NCBI RefSeq assembly: GCF_001905445.1
Contig: NZ_LIVQ01000003.1
Location: 310,102 to 374,101 of the forward strand
From: Streptomyces sp. CB00455
Lineage (GTDB): Bacteria; Actinomycetota; Actinomycetes; Streptomycetales; Streptomycetaceae
Direction: 5' to 3'
Length of the DNA: 64,000 nt
The stretch's first letter is position 1. Each line of letters opens with the position of its first letter. The position numbers were made by a program, and so were the translations under genes. This document shows, one piece after another, positions 44,963 through 64,000 of this stretch. The notes under the pieces were generated by a model. It was not told the DNA's origin and did no database searches. It saw nothing but the letters and a program-made list of their open reading frames with translations.

Positions 44963-46384
44963 TCAGGACGTGGGGACGCAGCGGCCCCCCTCCGTGTGGT
45001 ACTGCCACTTCGCGCCGTCCTCGACGAGCTCCCGCACCGCGCGGACGAAGCGCTCCACGTGCTCGTCGGGTGTGCCCGCTCCGAAGCTGACGCGGATCGC
45101 GTTCAGCCCGGCGCTCCCCCCGGACGAGGTCCGGGCAGGCTCTCCCGGCGCCGCGTCCGGCCCTCCGCACTCGCCCGGGTCCTGCGGCTCGCTGCCCAGC
45201 AGGGTGCGTACCAGCGGGTGGGCGCAGAACAGGCCGTCGCGGACGCCGATGCCGTATTCGGCGGAGAGGGCGGCCGCGAAGTGGGAGCTGTTCCAGCCGT
45301 CCACGACGAAGGAGATGACGCCCACCCGCGGCGCGTCGTCCCCGAACAGCGAGAGCACGCGGACGGCCGGGACGCCGGCCAGCCCCTCGCGGACCTTGTC
45401 GATCAGGTGGCGCTCGCGGGCGACGAGGCCCTCGAAGCCGGCCTCGGTCAGCGCCTTGCAGGCGGAGGCGATGGAGTAGACGCCGATCACGTTCGGGGAG
45501 CCGGCCTCGTGGCGGGCGGCGGTGGTGTGCCACTCGACGTCCACGCCGCCGTCCTCGCGCCGGGCGACCGTGCGGGAGGCGCCACCGCCCGCGAGGTACG
45601 GCTCGGCCTGCTGCAGCCAGTCGGCGCGGCCGGCGAGGACACCGGAGCCGAACGGGGCGTACAGCTTGTGCCCGGAGAAGGCGACCCAGTCCACGTCCAG
45701 CTCCTGCACGGAGACGGGGTGGTGCGGGGCGAGCTGGGCGGCGTCCAGGACGATTCGCGCGCCGTGGGCGTGCGCGGCGGCGGCGAGCTCCCTGACCGGC
45801 CACAGCTCACCGGTGACGTTGGACGCGCCGGTGACGCACACCAGCGCCGGGCCGTGGGGCTCGCGCCCGGCCAGCGCCCCTTCCAGGGTCGCGACCGCCT
45901 CGGCCGGGGTGCGCGGCGCGTCCAGGTAGGTGACCTGCGCGTTCGTCCAGGGCAGGAGCGAGGCGTGGTGCTCGGTCTCGAAGACGAAGACCTGGCAGCC
46001 GGCGGGGAGCGCGGCGGCGAGCAGGTTCAGCGAATCGGTGGTGGACCGGGTGAAGACCACCTGATCGCAGGGCCGGCAGTCGAGGAACTCGGCGACCGTG
46101 GCCCGGCTCTGCTCGAAGAGGTCGGTGGACAGCTGCGAGAGGTAGCCCGCCCCGCGGTGGACGCTGCCGTAGTAGGGGGCGTATGCGGCCACGTCGTCCC
46201 AGACCCGCTGGAGGGCGGGGGCGCTGGCCGCGTAGTCGAGGGCCGCGTAGGTGACCTCGCCGCCGGTGACCAGGGGGACGGTGACGTCCCGCCCGAGGAC
46301 CGGCAGCGGCCGGGCACAGGCCGGGTCGGCCGGGGCTGCGGTGGCGATGGCGGCGGTCGCGGTGGCGTTCAGGGATGCGGACAT
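44963..46384 (-). CDS. SufS-like class V aminotransferase / cysteine desulfurase
   Basis: This 473-residue PLP enzyme starts after GGGAGA. The lysine motif is in VDWVAFSGHKLYAPFGSGVL, the PLP-binding VVFTRSTTDSLNLLAAAL, and DAAQLAPHHPV. A cysteine in the SufS-like position is present at about residue 387 (RDGLFCAHPLVR), so desulfurase activity is plausible. An insert of about 30 residues rich in Gly, Pro and Glu follows it. A SAM-IV-type riboswitch with a terminator precedes the gene, linking it to methionine or sulfur metabolism. Confidence 0.87.
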   Translation of the reverse strand: MSASLNATATAAIATAAPADPACARPLPVLGRDVTVPLVTGGEVTYAALDYAASAPALQRVWDDVAAYAPYYGSVHRGAGYLSQLSTDLFEQSRATVAEFLDCRPCDQVVFTRSTTDSLNLLAAALPAGCQVFVFETEHHASLLPWTNAQVTYLDAPRTPAEAVATLEGALAGREPHGPALVCVTGASNVTGELWPVRELAAAAHAHGARIVLDAAQLAPHHPVSVQELDVDWVAFSGHKLYAPFGSGVLAGRADWLQQAEPYLAGGGASRTVARREDGGVDVEWHTTAARHEAGSPNVIGVYSIASACKALTEAGFEGLVARERHLIDKVREGLAGVPAVRVLSLFGDDAPRVGVISFVVDGWNSSHFAAALSAEYGIGVRDGLFCAHPLVRTLLGSEPQDPGECGGPDAAPGEPARTSSGGSAGLNAIRVSFGAGTPDEHVERFVRAVRELVEDGAKWQYHTEGGRCVPTS

Positions 46385-54832: not shown

Positions 54833-56565
54833 TTGCCGGCCTCCTTGTCACCGGTGAGCGCCTTGGTGCCACCGGCGGTGTGGTCCTCGAGGTGGTCGAG
54901 GGCCGCGATCTCCGGGTGGTGCAGGTCGAACGCCGGGGACTCGGAACGGATCCGCGGCAGGGTGATGAAGTTGTGCCGCGGCGGCGGGCAGGACGTCGCC
55001 CACTCCAGCGAACGGCCGTAGCCCCAGGGGTCGTCGACCTCGATCTTCTTGCCGTACTTCGCCGTCTTCCAGACGTTGTACATGAAGGGCAGCATCGACA
55101 TGCCGAGCAGGAACGAGCTGATCGTCGAGACGGTGTTCAGCGCGGTGAAGCCGTCGGCCGCGAGGTAGTCCGCGTACCGGCGCGGCATGCCCTCGGCGCC
55201 CAGCCAGTGCTGCACCAGGAACGTGCCGTGGAAGCCGACGAACAGCGTCCAGAAGGTGATCTTGCCCAGGCGCTCGTCCAGCATCTTGCCCGTGAACTTC
55301 GGCCACCAGAAGTGGAAGCCGGCGAACATCGCGAAGACCACGGTGCCGAAGACGACGTAGTGGAAGTGCGCGACGACGAAGTACGAGTCGGAGACGTGGA
55401 AGTCCATCGGGGGCGAGGCCAGGATGACGCCGGTCAGACCACCGAAGGTGAAGGTGACCAGGAAGCCGATCGTCCAGAGCATCGGGGTCTCGAAGGACAG
55501 CGAGCCCTTCCACATGGTGCCGATCCAGTTGAAGAACTTCACACCGGTCGGTACCGCGATCAGGAAGGTCATGAAGGAGAAGAACGGCAGCAGCACGCCG
55601 CCGGTGACGTACATGTGGTGGGCCCACACCGTCACCGAGAGGCCGGCGATCGCGATCGTCGCGCCGATCAGGCCGATGTAGCCGAACATCGGCTTGCGGC
55701 TGAAGACCGGGATGATCTCCGAGACGATGCCGAAGAACGGCAGCGCGATGATGTACACCTCTGGATGGCCGAAGAACCAGAAGAGGTGTTGCCAGAGCAG
55801 CGCTCCGCCGTTCGAGGCGTCGAAGACGTGCGCACCGAACTTCCGGTCGGCCTCCAGCGCGAAGAGCGCGGCGGCGAGCACCGGGAAGGCGAGCAGGACC
55901 AGGACACCGGTCAGCAGGACGTTCCAGGTGAAGATCGGCATGCGGAACATCGTCATGCCGGGTGCGCGCATGCAGATGATCGTGGTGATGAAGTTGACCG
56001 AGCCGAGGATCGTGCCGAAGCCCGAGAAGGCCAGACCCATGATCCACATGTCGGCGCCGATGCCCGGCGAACGGACGGCGTCCGACAGCGGGGAGTAGGC
56101 GAACCAGCCGAAGTCGGCGGCGCCGTTCGGCGTGACGAAGCCGGCCACCGCGATGCTGGAGCCGAAGAGGTACAGCCAGTACGCGAACATGTTCAGCCGC
56201 GGGAACGCCACGTCGGGCGCGCCGATCTGCAGCGGCATGATCCAGTTGGCGAATCCGGCGAACAGCGGCGTCGCGAACATCAGCAGCATGATCGTGCCGT
56301 GCATCGTGAACGCCTGGTTGAACTGCTCGTTCGACATGATCTGCGTGCCCGGACGGGCCAGCTCGGCGCGCATGAAGAGCGCGAGCACGCCGCCGATGAG
56401 GAAGAACACGAACGAGGTGACCAGGTACATCGTGCCGATGGTCTTGTGGTCGGTGGTGGTGAGCCACTTGATGACCACGTTGCCCGGCTGCTTGCGCCGT
56501 ACCGGCAGCTCGTTCTCGTACGAGTCGGCTGCGGCGGCACCCTGGGGTTCGTTGAGGATGCTCAC
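54829..56565 (-). CDS. ctaD: Cytochrome c oxidase subunit I
   Basis: CtaD carries haem a and the haem a3-CuB site. The 578-residue, 12-helix protein has the haem a ligand in [12 protein letters not shown], the cross-linked His-Tyr pair in [13 protein letters not shown], CuB ligands in [10 protein letters not shown], and the haem a3/a ligands in [14 protein letters not shown]- and D-pathway residues appear typical. The GTG start overlaps ctaC (GTGA). Confidence 0.97.
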
Positions 56566-57536
56566 AGTTTATTCGTCTCCGCGTTCCGGGCCGGGTCGGT
56601 CTGCTTGATGCCGGCCGGGAGGAAACCGGTCTGCCCCTTCTCCGCCAGCTCCTTCAGGTACGCCTGGTACTTCTCGGGCGAGACGACCTTGACGTTGAAG
56701 AGCATCCGGGAGTGGTCGACGCCGCAGAGCTCGGCACACTTGCCCATGAAGGTGCCTTCTTCGGTCGGGGTGACCTCGAAGACGTTGGTGTGGCCCGGGA
56801 TGACGTCCTGCTTGAACAGGAAGGGGACCACCCAGAAGGAGTGGATGACGTCGTTCGACGACAGGATGAAGCGGACCTTCTCGCCCTTGGGCAGCACCAG
56901 GGTCGGCCCCGGGTTGTCCGTCTGGGGGTTCCGGTCGCCGGGGACACCCTTCTGGTAGACGCCTTCGGCGCCCGCGGGGAAGTCCTTGGTGAAGCGGTCC
57001 GGGATGTTGGCGAGCTCCTTGGGGACCTCGCCCGCCTTCGGAGTCGCTCCGTCGCCGTCGACGTTCTCGATGTAGTTGAAGCCCCAGCTCCACTGGAAGC
57101 CGACCACGTTGATGGTGTGCGCCGGCTTCGGGGTGAGGGCGAGGAGCTTGGACTCGTCACGCGCGGTGAAGTAGAAGAGCACCGAGACGATGATGAGCGG
57201 GACCACGGTGTACAGCGCCTCGATGGGCATGTTGTACCGGGTCTGCGGAGGGACCTGCACCTTCGTCCGGCTGCGCCGGTGGAAGATGACGCTCCAGATG
57301 ATCAGGCCCCACACGAGGATGCCCGTGACGAGCGCGGCAGCCCAGGAGCCCTGCCACAGGGAGAGGATGCGCGGCGCCTCCTCGGTGACCGGAGTGGGCA
57401 TACCGAGGCGGGGGAAATTTTTCCAGTTGGACGAGCAACCAGTGGCGGTCGCCAGGACCGCGCCCGCAGTCAGCGCCTGCAGCAGCTTCCGCCGCATCGG
57501 GCGCCGCGGCGAGCGGTCGGAGCCGTAGGGACTCAC
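56562..57536 (-). CDS. ctaC: Cytochrome c oxidase subunit II
   Basis: CtaC accepts electrons through its CuA centre. The GTG at 57536 with GGGAAGG six bases upstream gives 324 residues. A lipoprotein signal ([19 protein letters not shown]) precedes two membrane helices (about 65-90 and 110-130). The CuA ligands are in [10 protein letters not shown] and [13 protein letters not shown]. It leads the ctaC-ctaD-ctaF operon; the 362-base gap upstream carries an inverted repeat overlapping a TAGGGT box. Confidence 0.96.
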
Positions 57537-57616
57537 GTAGCGCCTTCCCGAGAGTCTCGGCCCGCGCGGCCGGCCGCGGCCGTGTTCGGGTCGGTCGCCG
57601 GCCCTGACGCAGGCAG

Positions 57617-57645
57617 GGGTTTGGATGTTTATGCGGACCAAACCC
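57617..57645. promoter_or_regulatory. Inverted repeat at the ctaC promoter
   Basis: GGGTTTGG (57617-57624) and CCAAACCC (57638-57645) are perfect inverted arms 13 bases apart. On the minus strand the right arm overlaps a TAGGGT -10 box (57644-57649), about 100 bases upstream of ctaC. The rest of the 57537-57898 gap shows no other clear element apart from the leaderless promoter of the desulfurase gene. Confidence 0.6.
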
Positions 57646-57898: not shown

Positions 57899-59281
57899 AT
57901 GCCGTACTTCGACAGCGCGTCCGCCGCTCCCCTGCACCCCGTGGCCCGGCAGGCGCTGCAGGCCGCCCTGGACGAGGGCTGGGCCGATCCGGCCCGGCTC
58001 TACCGGGAGGGAAGGCGGGCGCGGCTGCTGCTGGACGCGGCGCGGGAGGCGGCGGCGGAGTCGGTCGGCTGCCGTCCCGACGAGCTCGTGTTCACTCCTT
58101 CGGGGACGCACGCGGTTCACGCGGGGGTCTCGGGGGTCCTGGCGGGGCGCCGGCGCGTGGGCGGCCACCTGGTCGTGTCGGCGGTCGAACACAGTTCCGT
58201 ACTCCATGCGGCGCAGGTGCACGAGGCCTCCGGCGGGACGGTGAGCGAGGTCCCGGTGGACCGGACGGGCGCGGTGGAGGCGGCGGGCTACCGGGAGGCG
58301 CTGGGCGCCACCACCGCCCTGGCCTGCCTGCAGTCCGCCAACCACGAGGTGGGCACGGTCCAGCCGGTGGCGGAGGTGGCCGGCCTCTGCGCGCAGGCCG
58401 GGGTGCCGCTCCTGGTGGACGCGGCGCAGTCACTGGGCTGGGGGCCGGTGGAGGGCCCCTGGTCCGTCCTGGCCGCCAGCGCGCACAAATGGGGCGGCCC
58501 GCCGGGGGTCGGCCTGCTGGCGGTCCGCAAGGGGGTGCGCTTCTCGCCCCAAGGCCCGGCGGACGAGCGGGAGTCGGGCCGCTCCCCCGGCTTCGTGAAC
58601 CTCCCCGCGATCGTGGCGGCGGCCGCCTCCCTGCGGGCGGTACGGGCCGAGGCCGACGCGGAGGCGGCCCGGCTGCGGGTCCTGGTGGACCGGATCCGGC
58701 GGCGGGTGGCGCGGCTGGTGCCGGACGTGGAGGTGGTCGGGGACCCGGAGCGCAGGCTCCCGCACCTGGTCACCTTCTCCTGCCTCTACGTCGACGGCGA
58801 GGCGCTCCTGCACGAGCTGGACCGGGCCGGGTTCTCGGTGTCCTCCGGCTCCTCGTGCACGAGCTCGACGCTGACCCCCAGTCACGTCCTGCGGGCGATG
58901 GGGGTGCTGTCGGAGGGGAACGTACGGGTCTCCCTGCCTCCGGGGACCACCGCGCAGGAGGTCAACGCGTTCCTGGAGGTGCTGCCGGGCGTGGTGGCGG
59001 GAGTACGGGAACGCCTCGGGGTGCGCGAGCCCGGCCCGCAGGTGCCGCCGGTGGCGGACTCCCTGGAACTGGACGCGCTCGGGCTGCGGTGTCCGCAGCC
59101 GGTGATCGAGCTGGCCCGGGCCGTCGTCACCGTCCCGGTGGGCGGCACGGTGACCGTCGTGTCGGACGACGAGGTGGCCCGGCTCGACATTCCGGCGTGG
59201 TGCGCGATGCGCGGCCACGCCTACCTCGGCGAGGCCGAACGGCCCGCGGGCGTCGCCTACACGGTCCGGCGTCTGCGCTGA
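57899..59281 (+). CDS. IscS-type cysteine desulfurase fused to TusA sulfurtransferase domain
   Basis: The ATG is six bases after TACGGT (57887-57892), so the message is probably leaderless; the product has 460 residues. Residues about 1-370 form a class V PLP desulfurase: FDSASAAPLHPVARQAL, SGTHAVHAGVSGVL, VDAAQSLGW, the PLP lysine in LAASAHKWGGPPGVGLL, and the catalytic Cys near residue 320 in SVSSGSSCTSSTLTPSHVLRAMG. Residues about 385-460 are TusA-like: LDALGLRCPQPVIELARAV (Cys about 398, CPxP), DEVARLDIPAWCAMRGH. The fusion puts donor and acceptor of a persulfide relay in one chain. Confidence 0.9.
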   Translation: MPYFDSASAAPLHPVARQALQAALDEGWADPARLYREGRRARLLLDAAREAAAESVGCRPDELVFTPSGTHAVHAGVSGVLAGRRRVGGHLVVSAVEHSSVLHAAQVHEASGGTVSEVPVDRTGAVEAAGYREALGATTALACLQSANHEVGTVQPVAEVAGLCAQAGVPLLVDAAQSLGWGPVEGPWSVLAASAHKWGGPPGVGLLAVRKGVRFSPQGPADERESGRSPGFVNLPAIVAAAASLRAVRAEADAEAARLRVLVDRIRRRVARLVPDVEVVGDPERRLPHLVTFSCLYVDGEALLHELDRAGFSVSSGSSCTSSTLTPSHVLRAMGVLSEGNVRVSLPPGTTAQEVNAFLEVLPGVVAGVRERLGVREPGPQVPPVADSLELDALGLRCPQPVIELARAVVTVPVGGTVTVVSDDEVARLDIPAWCAMRGHAYLGEAERPAGVAYTVRRLR

Positions 59282-59326: not shown

Positions 59327-60301
59327 TCAGGCCAGGTGCGCCCGGACCTCGGCGGCCGCCTCGTCCCCGTAGGCCTTGGTGAAGCGCTCCATGAAGTGGG
59401 CGCGCGCCAGGGTGTACTCCTGGGTGCCGAGCGTCTCGATGACGAGGGTGGCGAGCATGCAGCCCAGCTGCGCCGCCCGCTCCAGGCCGACGCCCCAGCC
59501 CAGGCCGGTCAGGAACCCGGCGCGGAAGGCGTCGCCGACACCCGTCGGGTCGACCTTCGCGGTCTCCTCCGGGCAGCCGACCACGACCGGCTCCTGGCCG
59601 GTCCGCTCGATCCTGACGCCGTTGGAGCCCAGGGTGGTCACGCGGGTGCCGACCTTCGACAGGATCTCGGCGTCCGACCAGCCGGACTTCGACTCGATCA
59701 GGCCCTTCTCGTACTCGTTCGAGAAGAGGAAGGTCGCGCCCTCCATCAGGGTGCGGATGTTGTCGCCGTCCATGCGGGCGATCTGCTGGGAGAAGTCGGC
59801 GGCGAAGGGGATCCCCCGCGTCCGGCACTCCTCCGTGTGGCGCAGCATCGCCTCGGGGTCGTCCGCGCCGATGAGGACCAGGTCGAGGCCGCCCACCCGG
59901 TCGGCGACGGCCTTGAGCTCGATCAGGCGGGCCTCGCTCATGGCGCCCGTGTAGAAGGAGCCGATCTGGTTGTGGTCGGCGTCGGTGGTGCACACGAAGC
60001 GCGCGGTGTGCAGCACCTCGGAGATCCGGACGGACTCGGTATCGACGCCGTGCCGCTCGAGCCAGGCGCGGTATTCGTCGAAGTCGGATCCGGCCGCTCC
60101 GACCAGGATCGGGCGGCTGCCGAGCTGCCCCATGCCGAAGCAGATGTTCGGGCCGACACCGCCCCGCCGGACGTCGAGGTTGTCGACGAGGAAGGAGAGG
60201 GAGACCGTGTGCAGCTGGTCCGCGACCAGCTGGTCGGCGAAACGGCCGGGGAAGGTCATGAGGTGGTCGGTGGCGATGGAGCCGGTGACTGCGATGCGCA
60301 C
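59327..60301 (-). CDS. PfkB-family kinase, probable adenosine kinase (AdoK-like)
   Basis: The GTG at 60301 behind CAGGAG gives 324 residues (MRIAVTGSIATDHLMTFPGRF). It closely follows the mycobacterial adenosine kinase Rv2202c in my memory: VSLSFLVDNLDVRRGGVG, GAMSEARLIELKAV, IGADDPEAMLRHTEECR, ADFSQQIARM and the PfkB anion-hole/catalytic motif DPTGVGDAFRAGFLTG. The active-site Asp is in GVGDAF. Databases often call it carbohydrate kinase, but the similarity favours adenosine salvage. A ribokinase role cannot be excluded from sequence. Confidence 0.85.
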   Translation of the reverse strand: MRIAVTGSIATDHLMTFPGRFADQLVADQLHTVSLSFLVDNLDVRRGGVGPNICFGMGQLGSRPILVGAAGSDFDEYRAWLERHGVDTESVRISEVLHTARFVCTTDADHNQIGSFYTGAMSEARLIELKAVADRVGGLDLVLIGADDPEAMLRHTEECRTRGIPFAADFSQQIARMDGDNIRTLMEGATFLFSNEYEKGLIESKSGWSDAEILSKVGTRVTTLGSNGVRIERTGQEPVVVGCPEETAKVDPTGVGDAFRAGFLTGLGWGVGLERAAQLGCMLATLVIETLGTQEYTLARAHFMERFTKAYGDEAAAEVRAHLA

Positions 60302-60434
60302 GGCGTGGACGCTCCTGCGGAGGACGGCAAGGGGGACAGTCAAAACTACCCGGTCGACGGCCCCGGGCCGACCGGACGAAACTACCCCGTAGTAGCTCTT
60401 TCTTCCCGCGCGGCGCGGTGCCTACGGTGCCTTC

Positions 60435-60823: not shown

Positions 60824-62269
60824 GTGACCAGCGAAGAACCCGACACATCACGCGGCGCACGGCGGCGGCCGCCCTGGGCCGTCGGCGCGGTGGCGGCCGC
60901 CGTCCTGCTGACGGGCGGCGGTACCGCGTACTGGGCGTCCACGGCCTACGGCGACGCCGGGTCGGGCCGCGGTACGCAAAAGGGCGCGGCCTCGGCGGCC
61001 CGTGACGCCGGGAGCCCTTCGGGGCCGGGCATCGCGCCCGGGGAGCCCGACCCGTCCGGTGGCGGTGTGGTCTACCGGGCGGACGTGGCGCTCCCGCAGG
61101 CCCCGGCCTCGGCGCCCCGCTTCAGCGCGTCGGGGGAGGTCACCTCGGCGGAGGTGGCCCGTCTCGCGGCGGCCCTCGGGATCCAGGGCGAACCGCGGCA
61201 GAGCGGTGACGGCTGGCTGGCCGGGGAGGGTGCCGACGGCTCCGGCCCGCGGCTGACGGTGACCCGTACGGCCCCGGGAACCTGGAGCTTCAGCCGCTTC
61301 CAGGGGCGCGGCGACGGTTCGGGCAGCGGCGCGGGGGATGCCTGCGTGCGCGGCAAGGACACCTGCGGGCCCGCCACGCTCCCCGGGGGCTCCGGGAACG
61401 GGGAGGCGGGCGCCGGCGAGCCGGTGTCCGAGGAGGCCGCCAAGGCGGCTGCCGCTCCGGTGCTGGCCGCCGCCGGCCAGTCGGGGGCCCGGCTGGACGC
61501 CCGGCTTCTTCAGGGCTCGGTGCGGGTGGTGACGGCGGACCCGGTGGTCGGCGGGCTCCCCACACAGGGCTGGTCCACCAAGGTGAGCGTGGCCGGGGAC
61601 GGTGCGGTGCTGGCCGGCAGCGGCGAGCTGAAGGCCCCGGTGCGGGCGTCCGACCAGCCGGTGGTCGGGGCGACCGAGGCGCTGGCCCGGCTGAACGCGA
61701 AGTCGGGCGGTTCGGACGGCACGGGCCCCGGGCCGAGCGGCTGCGCGACCTCGGTGCCGCTGGACCCGGACCACCCGGTGGGCGCGACGGACACTCCGCC
61801 GTGCAATCCGGAGCCGCGGCCGATGAAGCCCCCGCGTACGGAGACGGTCAAGGGCGCGGCTCTCGGCCTGGTCCCCGGGTCGGTGGACGGCTCCCGCGGT
61901 CTGGTTCCGGCCTGGCTGTTCGAGGTGGCGGGGCAGGGCGGTGCTCCCGGTCACACGGTGGCGCAGCCGGCCGGCGAGGAGGACGCGCCCGCTCCCGGGG
62001 GCGGGCGCACGGTGCCCGGATTCTCGTACGCGCAGGCCGACCGGCAGCTGACGGTGAACTTCTGGGGCGGGGCGTGCAGCACCTACGCGCTGGAGGTCCG
62101 CGAGGAGACCGCCGCGGTCATGGTGAAGATCACCGATACCCCGGACAAGCCGGGCCGGGCCTGCATCATGCTGGCCGAGGAGAGGTCCCTGACGGCGACG
62201 CTCCAGCAGCCGCTGGGCGACCGGAAGGTCGTCGACGCCACGACGGGCAAGGCGCTGCCCGGGCGGTGA
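60824..62269 (+). CDS. Single-pass membrane protein with large extracellular domain
   Basis: The GTG follows AAGGAG by seven bases, giving 481 residues. An N-terminal basic segment and one membrane helix (about 18-40, AVGAVAAAVLLTGGGTAYWAS) anchor a large Gly/Ala/Pro-rich exported domain. Cysteines occur in two pairs (ACVRGKDTCGP and the SGCAT...PCNPEP, GGACST...RACIML segments) that could form disulfides. No enzyme motif is visible. It resembles Streptomyces SCO2160-type conserved proteins in position. Role unknown. Confidence 0.8.
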   Translation: MTSEEPDTSRGARRRPPWAVGAVAAAVLLTGGGTAYWASTAYGDAGSGRGTQKGAASAARDAGSPSGPGIAPGEPDPSGGGVVYRADVALPQAPASAPRFSASGEVTSAEVARLAAALGIQGEPRQSGDGWLAGEGADGSGPRLTVTRTAPGTWSFSRFQGRGDGSGSGAGDACVRGKDTCGPATLPGGSGNGEAGAGEPVSEEAAKAAAAPVLAAAGQSGARLDARLLQGSVRVVTADPVVGGLPTQGWSTKVSVAGDGAVLAGSGELKAPVRASDQPVVGATEALARLNAKSGGSDGTGPGPSGCATSVPLDPDHPVGATDTPPCNPEPRPMKPPRTETVKGAALGLVPGSVDGSRGLVPAWLFEVAGQGGAPGHTVAQPAGEEDAPAPGGGRTVPGFSYAQADRQLTVNFWGGACSTYALEVREETAAVMVKITDTPDKPGRACIMLAEERSLTATLQQPLGDRKVVDATTGKALPGR

Positions 62270-62344: not shown

Positions 62345-62701
62345 TTAGCTGAAGGAGTCGCCGCAGGCGCAGGAACCCGTGGCGTTCGGGTTGTCGATGG
62401 TGAAGCCCTGCTTCTCGATGGTGTCGACGAAGTCGATGGAGGCACCGTGGAGGTACGGGGAGCTCATCCGGTCGGTGACGACCTTCACACCGTCGAAGTC
62501 CTTGACCACGTCGCCGTCGAGGGAACGCTCGTCGAAGAAGAGCTGGTAGCGCAGGCCGGAGCAGCCGCCGGGCTGGACGGCGACGCGGAGCGCCAGGTCA
62601 TCGCGGCCTTCCTGCTCCAGCAGGGTCCTGACCTTTTCGGCGGCGGCGTCGGACAGGAGGATGCCGTCGCTCACGGTGGTCTTGTCGTCCTGTACGGACA
62701 T
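62345..62701 (-). CDS. erpA: Iron-sulfur cluster insertion protein ErpA
   Basis: ErpA (A-type carrier, HesB/IscA family) delivers Fe-S clusters to apoproteins. The ATG at 62701, eight bases after GGGAG, gives 118 residues. Ligand cysteines are at LRVAVQPGGCSGLRYQLFF and the C-terminal GSCACGDSF. The gene is divergent from nadA, whose product is a 4Fe-4S enzyme and a likely client. Mycobacterial Rv2204c is the matching gene. Confidence 0.95.
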   Translation of the reverse strand: MSVQDDKTTVSDGILLSDAAAEKVRTLLEQEGRDDLALRVAVQPGGCSGLRYQLFFDERSLDGDVVKDFDGVKVVTDRMSSPYLHGASIDFVDTIEKQGFTIDNPNATGSCACGDSFS

Positions 62702-62875
62702 CTGCATTCACTCCCGAAGTGGGCGGCTCCCCGCCGGAGCAGGGAAACGTCGGACTCTTGCCGTCGGTGGCAACGAGCGGGGCCGCGGATTCATTCCGGG
62801 ACCCGACGCTTGTTTCAGACATTCATGCTCGCACACCGCGGGCCGAGGCGGCCGCTGTCCGGCGGTCGGCTCATT

Positions 62876-62945: not shown

Positions 62946-63004
62946 AGAAGTCGAAGTGATGCCTCCAGTCCCCCCCTTGTCGCAGAACAGAAAGGGTGCG
63001 TGTC

Positions 63005-64000
63005 GTGACCACCGCCCAGCCCTTGGACGTCCAGCCGACGCCCCTCGCCCTGCTGCTGCTCGGCCGTGAGGCCGACCCCAAGAGCGAGCGCGGGGTGGAA
63101 TGCCCCGGTGACCTGCCCTCGCCGTCCGACCCGGACCTCGTGGCGCGCGCCCGTGCGGCGAAGGAGAAGCTCGGGGACAAGGTCTTCATCCTCGGCCACC
63201 ACTACCAGCGTGACGAGGTCATCGAATTCGCCGACGTCACCGGTGACTCCTTCAAGCTGGCCAAGGACGCCGCCGCCAAGCCGGAGGCCGAGTACATCGT
63301 CTTCTGCGGCGTGCACTTCATGGCCGAGTCCGCGGACATCCTCACCTCGGACGACCAGAAGGTGGTCCTGCCGGACCTGGCCGCCGGCTGCTCGATGGCC
63401 GACATGGCCACCGCCGAGCAGGTCGCCGAGTGCTGGGACGTGCTGAGCGAGGCCGGCGTCGCCGGTGCGACGGTCCCCGTCTCGTACATGAACTCCTCCG
63501 CCGACATCAAGGCCTTCACCGGCAAGCACGGCGGCACGATCTGTACGTCCTCCAACGCGAAGAAGGCCCTGGAGTGGGCCTTCGAGCAGGGCGAGAAGGT
63601 GCTCTTCCTCCCGGACCAGCACCTGGGCCGCAACACCGCCGTCCGCGACATGGGCATGTCCCTGGACGACTGCGTCCTGTACAACCCGCACAAGCCGAAC
63701 GGCGGCCTGACCGTCGAGCAGCTGCGCAACGCCAGGATGATCCTGTGGCGCGGGCACTGCTCGGTCCACGGCCGTTTCTCGGTGGACTCGGTCAACGACG
63801 TGCGCGCCCGGATCCCCGGCGTGAACGTCCTCGTCCACCCCGAGTGCAAGCACGAGGTCGTGGCCGCGGCGGATTACGTCGGCTCGACGGAGTACATCAT
63901 CAAGGCGCTGGAGGCGGCCCCGGCCGGGTCCAAGTGGGCCATCGGCACCGAGCTGAACCTGGTCCGCCGCCTGGCGAATCGATTCGCCGCGCAGGACAAG
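63005..64000 (+). CDS. nadA: Quinolinate synthase NadA (partial at right edge)
   Basis: NadA condenses iminoaspartate and dihydroxyacetone phosphate to quinolinate using a 4Fe-4S cluster, the de novo NAD pathway. The first 332 residues from the GTG are present. Motifs include VFILGHHYQRDEVIEFADVTGDSFKLA, the cluster cysteine in IVFCGVHFMAESADIL (Cys 1), LAAGCSMADM, MNSSADIKAFTG, LFLPDQHLGRN, WRGHCSVHGRF and LVHPECKHEVV (further cluster Cys). It continues past the window; nadB and nadC usually follow. Confidence 0.97.
   Translation, partial: MTTAQPLDVQPTPLALLLLGREADPKSERGVECPGDLPSPSDPDLVARARAAKEKLGDKVFILGHHYQRDEVIEFADVTGDSFKLAKDAAAKPEAEYIVFCGVHFMAESADILTSDDQKVVLPDLAAGCSMADMATAEQVAECWDVLSEAGVAGATVPVSYMNSSADIKAFTGKHGGTICTSSNAKKALEWAFEQGEKVLFLPDQHLGRNTAVRDMGMSLDDCVLYNPHKPNGGLTVEQLRNARMILWRGHCSVHGRFSVDSVNDVRARIPGVNVLVHPECKHEVVAAADYVGSTEYIIKALEAAPAGSKWAIGTELNLVRRLANRFAAQDK

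Follow-up and report, generated by a model that had tools for sequence, protein, structure and literature searches.

A cysteine desulfurase-TusA fusion of the Streptomycetaceae, its adjoining gene pair in other actinomycetes and a DsrE protein as candidate partner

The fusion protein and its locus

The window, the whole stretch of 64,000 nucleotides from Streptomyces sp. CB00455 that was analysed, derives from a strain whose closest named relatives are Streptomyces goshikiensis, S. virginiae and S. avidinii. Close to its end, a single open frame encodes a cysteine desulfurase followed by a TusA domain, with the following features in and around it.

56562..57641, minus strand: ctaC, divergent neighbour encoding cytochrome oxidase subunit II (NF050117, 334.5 bits)
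57899..59281, plus strand: fusion frame of cysteine desulfurase, linker and TusA, 460 aa plus stop (Pfam, NCBIfam)
57899..59014, plus strand: class I cysteine desulfurase domain of NifS/IscS type, residues 1-372 (Pfam, phmmer against PDB, model)
58487..58489, plus strand: Lys197 of SAHKWGG, predicted PLP-binding lysine (alignment with E. coli IscS)
58856..58858, plus strand: Cys320 of SSGSSCTS, equivalent to Cys328 of E. coli IscS (alignment)
59015..59059, plus strand: linker, residues 373-387 (pLDDT below 50 at residues 378-382)
59060..59272, plus strand: TusA domain, residues 388-458 (PF01206 at 390-457; phmmer to E. coli TusA structures)
59090..59092, plus strand: Cys398 of CPQP, equivalent to Cys19 of E. 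coli TusA (alignment)
59327..60343, minus strand: PfkB-family kinase, convergent neighbour, recurrent at the locus (Pfam, NCBIfam)
62345..62707, minus strand: ErpA-type Fe-S insertion protein (NF010147, 118.2 bits, cut-off 117)
62996..64000, plus strand: NadA, running past the window end (PF02445)

The Aminotran_5 profile covers residues 3-358 (148.9 bits, Pfam cut-off 21.5) and PF01206 matches residues 390-457 of the same frame (60.1 bits, cut-off 28.6), which, together with both cysteines, makes the protein a natural desulfurase-TusA fusion, and the only PF01206 match in a profile search of the genome. The larger half has the Aminotran_5 fold, the PLP lysine and the mobile-loop cysteine of a class I desulfurase, as recognised by profile, alignment and model, and matches IscS/NifS chains in the PDB (phmmer); His98, Lys197 and Cys320 fall at the expected places in the alignment to E. 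coli IscS (L161, positions read by eye), while Asp424 and Asp430 align with Asp45 and Asp51 of E. coli TusA (by eye). The structure model, built from 24 close sequences with a mean pLDDT of 71, is modest and was therefore used for secondary structure and as a fold check only; IscS/NifS structures are its best 50 matches in a structure search, the last helix of the desulfurase domain spans residues 352-372 and the order beta-alpha-beta-alpha-beta-beta is found at residues 388-457. The earlier note on this DNA, which described a complete IscS-like domain with its catalytic cysteine followed by a TusA domain with the CPxP cysteine, is thus borne out in position and strand, and a different fold of the small domain is not borne out, as it is TusA by sequence and the modest model agrees on the order of strands and helices.

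Neither half, on the other hand, passes an equivalog threshold, as the NCBIfam model nearest to the desulfurase domain, the NifS model TIGR03402, gives 267 bits (cut-off 530.75) and the NCBIfam TusA model gives 44.9 bits with the small domain (cut-off 78). Judged by its sequence, the desulfurase half is a member of the enzyme family, but no IscS or NifS orthologue by this cut-off, and the TusA half is assigned to the TusA family by PF01206 and the CPxP cysteine, yet fails the E. coli-type equivalog cut-off.

All neighbours named in the earlier note are present, ctaC and ErpA by NCBIfam, the PfkB kinase and NadA by Pfam, and a gene that we take by eye to be ctaD. With ctaC, pfkB, erpA and nadA recurring around a desulfurase-TusA pair in many families, these genes constitute the conserved context of the locus, and ctaC is no part of a relay. 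The note had also seen in the neighbours a hint at the sulfur acceptor, which is not supported, as seven loci of family f15 (L121-L127) have lost the desulfurase and retain TusA, ctaC, pfkB and erpA. The old neighbourhood outlasts the loss of the desulfurase, so that the nearby ErpA and oxidase genes say little in favour of an Fe-S or oxidase role and were discarded as clues to function. At positions 60824-62269 (plus strand) the window also encodes a 481-aa protein, secreted-looking by eye, without a Pfam or NCBIfam match; L096, L102 and L108 show partial matches to it at the corresponding position.

One frame or two adjoining genes

The fused frame is found in 81 of 81 Streptomycetaceae genomes from 17 genera. 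In 69 of these the match reaches the TusA part directly, and the remaining 12, read one by one, all combine both cysteine motifs in one frame with longer linkers. Likewise, both motifs share a frame in 80 of 80 named relatives, which as the best 80 of 560 matches carry no information on taxa outside the family. As the frame recurs in both sets, the fusion is no artefact or chance event; it is a family-wide trait in the Streptomycetaceae sample, ordinary for its family and of a type already known in print. A TusA match was obtained for 144 of the 150 genus genomes, most of the listed best matches lying in open frames of approximately 450-530 aa. The linker varies greatly in length across the family (L141-L152), with repeats visible by eye in L141 and L146.

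Outside the family the same order is met with two genes. In Nonomuraea gerenzanensis ctaC (minus), desulfurase (plus), TusA (plus), pfkB (minus), erpA (minus) and nadA (plus) follow each other, with desulfurase and TusA encoded separately, and among the best 40 of 371 matches in a plasmid collection there was no fusion, the top match being an unfused pair of Nonomuraea. Desulfurase and TusA positions were compared among the matches listed for 246 genomes sampled from the class, and TusA lies at most 600 bp downstream on the same strand in 117 of the 136 genomes with a listed best desulfurase match. Twenty-three of these 117 pair-bearing genomes, all of the window's genus, have one open frame and 94 have separate genes. 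A domain survey of actinobacterial fusions, as proposed in the earlier note, gives 81 of 81 fused Streptomycetaceae and 94 unfused pairs in the class sample. Desulfurase and TusA lie apart in 6 of the other 19 genomes and 13 lack TusA among the matches listed, at least six of which (G150, G188, G233, G238, G318 and G354) nevertheless carry TusA at the locus.

The 48 loci submitted for junction reading gave 28 junctions from 26 genomes. A possible start codon of TusA overlaps the desulfurase stop codon in 22 of 26 unfused junctions, by 4 nt in 19 cases and by 1 nt in three, while in four neither overlap is possible. A small shift at such overlapping genes would give the fusion, which may have arisen at the ctaC-pfkB-erpA-nadA locus from two older neighbouring genes that often overlapped, with the joining taking place in the Streptomycetaceae, probably once, by bringing the overlap into one frame. 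That desulfurase and TusA are dedicated partners with a relay between them is well supported by these gene arrangements. The claim of the earlier note that the desulfurase hands its persulfide to TusA gains from the fusion, the 94 adjoining pairs and the 22 of 26 overlaps as far as dedicated partnership is concerned, whereas its wording that the fusion shows this directly was overstated.

DsrE proteins and their distribution

In many actinomycetes TusA is accompanied by a DsrE-type protein (PF02635) of approximately 120 aa with the motif CxQCxxRR. The motif is present in 19 of 20 DsrE matches with fetched surroundings (exception L181), in two further sequences (L212, L214) and in 17 of 19 additional sampled PF02635 matches, the exceptions being the second DsrE of G346 and the match in G191; as the motif served to select sequences, its constancy rests on these match counts. 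A phmmer search of DsrE against the PDB gave nothing credible.

Across the class sample, DsrE is found in 156 of 246 genomes, and 148 genomes possess TusA and DsrE, 16 TusA only, 8 DsrE only and 74 neither (phi 0.79, as compared with 0.29 for MoaC and 0.31 for FdhD), counts that include every kind of TusA and are uncorrected for ancestry, with Fisher values that ignore shared descent. The co-inheritance to be expected from a relay that includes both proteins is thus present at class level, uncorrected for ancestry as it is. Furthermore, DsrE is present in 112 of the 117 pair-bearing genomes. In family f21 (genomes of 1.2-2.2 Mb, n=23), the same five genomes have both TusA and DsrE, 18 have neither and none has one of the two; family f22 (n=20) has 12 genomes with both, one with TusA only and seven with neither, f14 has two with both, one with DsrE only and five with neither, and the TusA/DsrE counts of f9 are 1, 1 and 3. 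Family f29 shows an opposing pattern, with three genomes with both, six with TusA only, two with DsrE only and one with neither, and those of its TusA loci that were read have a gene context that differs from the fusion locus. DsrE is also present in all 14 f15 genomes that have TusA without a listed close desulfurase (locus read in seven), while G211, G153 and G176 have a desulfurase match (41-58% identity) and no DsrE match; G211 and G153 have no TusA at the desulfurase locus, with no room for it in G211, which has a PF01206 match elsewhere in the genome. DsrE follows TusA and not the desulfurase.

Other settings of TusA were observed on the way. A stand-alone TusA of families f20 and f29 (L128, L134, L135, L136) is accompanied by a molybdopterin oxidoreductase, a ferredoxin-type subunit and a rhodanese-metallo-beta-lactamase protein, and in three of these four loci by a DsrE-like protein, all as read by eye, which makes this a different sulfur cluster. 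At L130, L132 and L133 the TusA gene is next to a gene for a YeeE-like membrane protein (by eye), an arrangement that presumably resembles the thiosulfate uptake pair YeeE-YeeD.

At a Streptomyces locus (L163) the neighbours of DsrE are a two-domain rhodanese, DUF1416, DUF3099, nitrobindin, Fur and YgfZ, most of which recur, with gaps, at other DsrE loci. Much of this neighbourhood is present without DsrE in the TusA-less G169 and G232, and as it persists in loci from which DsrE is missing (L208, L210), it says little about the final target. Profile and protein searches detected no DsrE in the genome of the window's strain, where approximately 3 kb of other genes lie between DUF3099 and nitrobindin (L196:3159-6188), as in G266. 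The genes in this slot (L196:3159-6188, L199) look membrane-anchored or secreted by eye.

Inside the genus, DsrE is present in 134 of 150 genomes and missing in 16, with 128 genomes having TusA and DsrE, 16 TusA only (the window's strain and 15 of the 149 others), 6 DsrE only and none neither, so that co-inheritance is not found among these 150 genomes and TusA and DsrE are not associated. Of the six with DsrE and no TusA match (G008, G050, G079, G099, G112 and G130), G079 is 78% complete and the others are split into at least several hundred contigs, although the completeness of three is given as 98-100%. In the best tree calculated for 38 fusions from the desulfurase columns, with G145 as a long branch, DsrE changes state four times (the 13-genome clade that includes the window; G081, G059 and G103; G086; G354), two of which are forced by well-supported branches, while the fusion is retained throughout. 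Fusion and TusA motif are intact in 18 of 18 DsrE-less genomes read, and in six of these the TusA domain is under purifying selection (pN/pS 0.17-0.54). As the fusion is kept without DsrE, DsrE is neither indispensable nor the sole reason for its retention, and the DsrE link is a new lead at the class level with counter-evidence in the genus and in the window's strain.

Two sequence features were considered as signatures of DsrE. Among the 38 genus sequences, a charged residue follows DIPAWC in 18 of 20 DsrE-bearing and in none of 18 DsrE-less genomes, but this candidate was refuted in a set of 50 named genomes, where 15 of 15 non-CPQP genomes with A, T or G at this position have DsrE. CPQP is found in 15 of 18 DsrE-less and none of 20 DsrE-bearing genus sequences, and among the 50 named genomes all nine with CPQP lack DsrE and all 41 others possess it. 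However, those nine are the nearest named relatives of the window (86-91% identity), four of them probably identical to G039, G042, G046 and G078 of the genus sample, and three DsrE-less genomes (G081, G086 and G354) do not have the Q; confounded by descent and with too few independent pairs, CPQP was rejected as a signature of DsrE loss. The Q occupies the site of E. coli TusA Glu21, part of the contact with IscS (PMC2854127, excerpt), and may therefore not report on DsrE.

Sulfur acceptors and known systems

The genome of the window's strain has 17 PF00266 matches, counting fragments and other enzymes. One of these, away from the fusion, is SufS (L002, 611 bits, NCBIfam cut-off 475), next to a gene recognised by eye that we take to be SufC-like. 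A further, IscS-type desulfurase adjoins mnmA (L004/L089; MnmA 416.8 bits, cut-off 284), which gives MnmA a candidate donor of its own; this enzyme (L089:5305-6468) belongs to the same family as the fusion, both being closest to the NifS model, but is without TusA. Within the window, a SufS-type PLP protein (44963-46384, minus strand; 247 bits, cut-off 475) lies approximately 11.5 kb from the fusion. At least two desulfurase matches of the fusion's type (E <= 1e-30) are present in 116 of the 117 pair-bearing genomes, with one in G221, and among the matches listed the second has 38-42% identity to the desulfurase half of the fusion.

Several destinations of the sulfur can be weighed against these data. 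The TusA domain could act within the enzyme, as an activator, a persulfide reservoir or in H2S release, with no dedicated downstream protein and with DsrE co-occurring by lineage, as is suggested by its conservation and purifying selection in DsrE-less genomes and by the lack of association inside the genus; this is unlikely in view of the f15 genomes, which all have DsrE with TusA in the absence of a close desulfurase, and the joint absence of TusA and DsrE in 18 of 23 f21 and 7 of 20 f22 genomes. Equally doubtful is that TusA supplies Moco through the MoaD/MoeZ or FdhD systems, a role that has been put forward for the E. coli protein. In profile searches 218 of the 246 class genomes had MoaC and 199 had FdhD, as did 112 and 109, respectively, of the 117 pair-bearing genomes, a mild association of both with the pair, and in the window's strain, with one FdhD and one MoaC match and no DsrE, this route may apply. 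However, five of the 117 pair-bearing genomes (G159, G160, G178, G192 and G213, from three families) have neither, 52 class genomes hold both and no TusA match, and phi is 0.21-0.31 for the Moco genes against 0.64-0.79 for DsrE. Moco is thus neither required nor sufficient for the pair, and of the Moco acceptor suggested in the earlier note the mild association remains, while an obligatory role does not.

The tRNA pathway, also brought up in the note, has the precedent of the E. coli IscS-TusA route to tRNA (PMC2854127, excerpt), but provision of sulfur for 2-thiouridine via MnmA is improbable, given the separate desulfurase beside mnmA and the second desulfurase nearly always at hand in pair-bearing genomes. 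A TusD-like DsrE-family partner, as in an E. coli-type Tus relay, was not found in the window's genome and is present in 134 of 150 genus genomes. Least of all is the fusion expected to be a general Fe-S cluster desulfurase working with the neighbouring ErpA. In the window erpA lies approximately 3 kb from the fusion, and many families likewise have it close to the pair; the gene keeps its place in the seven loci without desulfurase, the genome holds the SUF-type desulfurase, and the alignment finds in the fusion no counterpart of the C-terminal segment of IscS bound by IscU in E. coli (PMC2854127, excerpt). On present evidence the acceptor is accordingly not reached through MnmA, and Moco is not obligatory.

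The reading towards which we lean, if not strongly, is that of a self-contained sulfur-charging unit, descended from the adjoining gene pair and serving a separate route with DsrE as the next carrier in many actinomycetes. The PLP-dependent desulfurase half would transfer sulfur from L-cysteine onto Cys320 and, by analogy with E. coli IscS-TusA, the persulfide would pass from there to Cys398 of the TusA half, with the linker as a tether. The route would be separate from the SUF desulfurase and from the one beside mnmA and run from cysteine via desulfurase, TusA and DsrE to a further target, whereby the next carrier is most likely the CxQCxxRR DsrE, frequently accompanied by genes for rhodanese, DUF1416, nitrobindin, Fur and YgfZ. 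As DsrE is missing in the window's clade, TusA would there have to deliver to something else. A wider version of this proposal, tentative and rather less probable, sees a third sulfur line besides the SUF and MnmA-linked ones, in which the fused or coupled unit charges DsrE and which has been rewired in the clade of S. goshikiensis, S. virginiae and S. avidinii; loss of DsrE, the change from CP(I/V/L)P to CPQP and a new acceptor would mark this rewiring. With respect to significance, the fusion would mark a dedicated sulfur route in a large class, with CxQCxxRR DsrE as candidate partner, Moco unlikely as the only target and tRNA 2-thiolation unlikely, and species that naturally lack DsrE or the desulfurase are at hand for tests.

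Natural fusions of cysteine desulfurase and TusA have been recorded in a 2025 review (PMC11763069), which cites a 2023 survey (10.1093/jxb/erad065). The same two domains are combined in one chain as here, though the available part of the review names no taxon, locus, unfused ancestor or partner, whereas here the fusion could be assigned to a single family and a single locus and connected with an adjoining gene pair and a co-inherited DsrE. In the literature consulted, in part and mostly outside subscription journals, no function was noticed for TusA or CxQCxxRR DsrE in Streptomyces, nor a link between the two.

With E. coli IscS-TusA the fusion shares a class I desulfurase with a loop cysteine and a TusA with the CPxP cysteine and both aspartates. 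It differs in being a single chain, in having no counterpart of the IscU-binding tail, which is the C-terminus of IscS, and in the location of mnmA beside another desulfurase. In E. coli the transfer occurs in trans, with TusA being charged by the opposite subunit of the dimer (PMC2854127, excerpt). The charges of the central salt bridge between IscS Glu49 and TusA Arg27 and Arg31 are absent in the fusion, where the respective sites are non-polar (Leu43; Ala406 and Val410; alignments, by eye). TusA together with DsrE-family sulfur carriers, as proposed here, is also found in sulfur-oxidising bacteria with DsrEFH and TusA (PMC3397948, PMC11763069, excerpts); unlike in these, the DsrE of actinomycetes is a stand-alone protein of approximately 120 aa with CxQCxxRR, and its sulfur would supposedly come from the fused or adjoining desulfurase.
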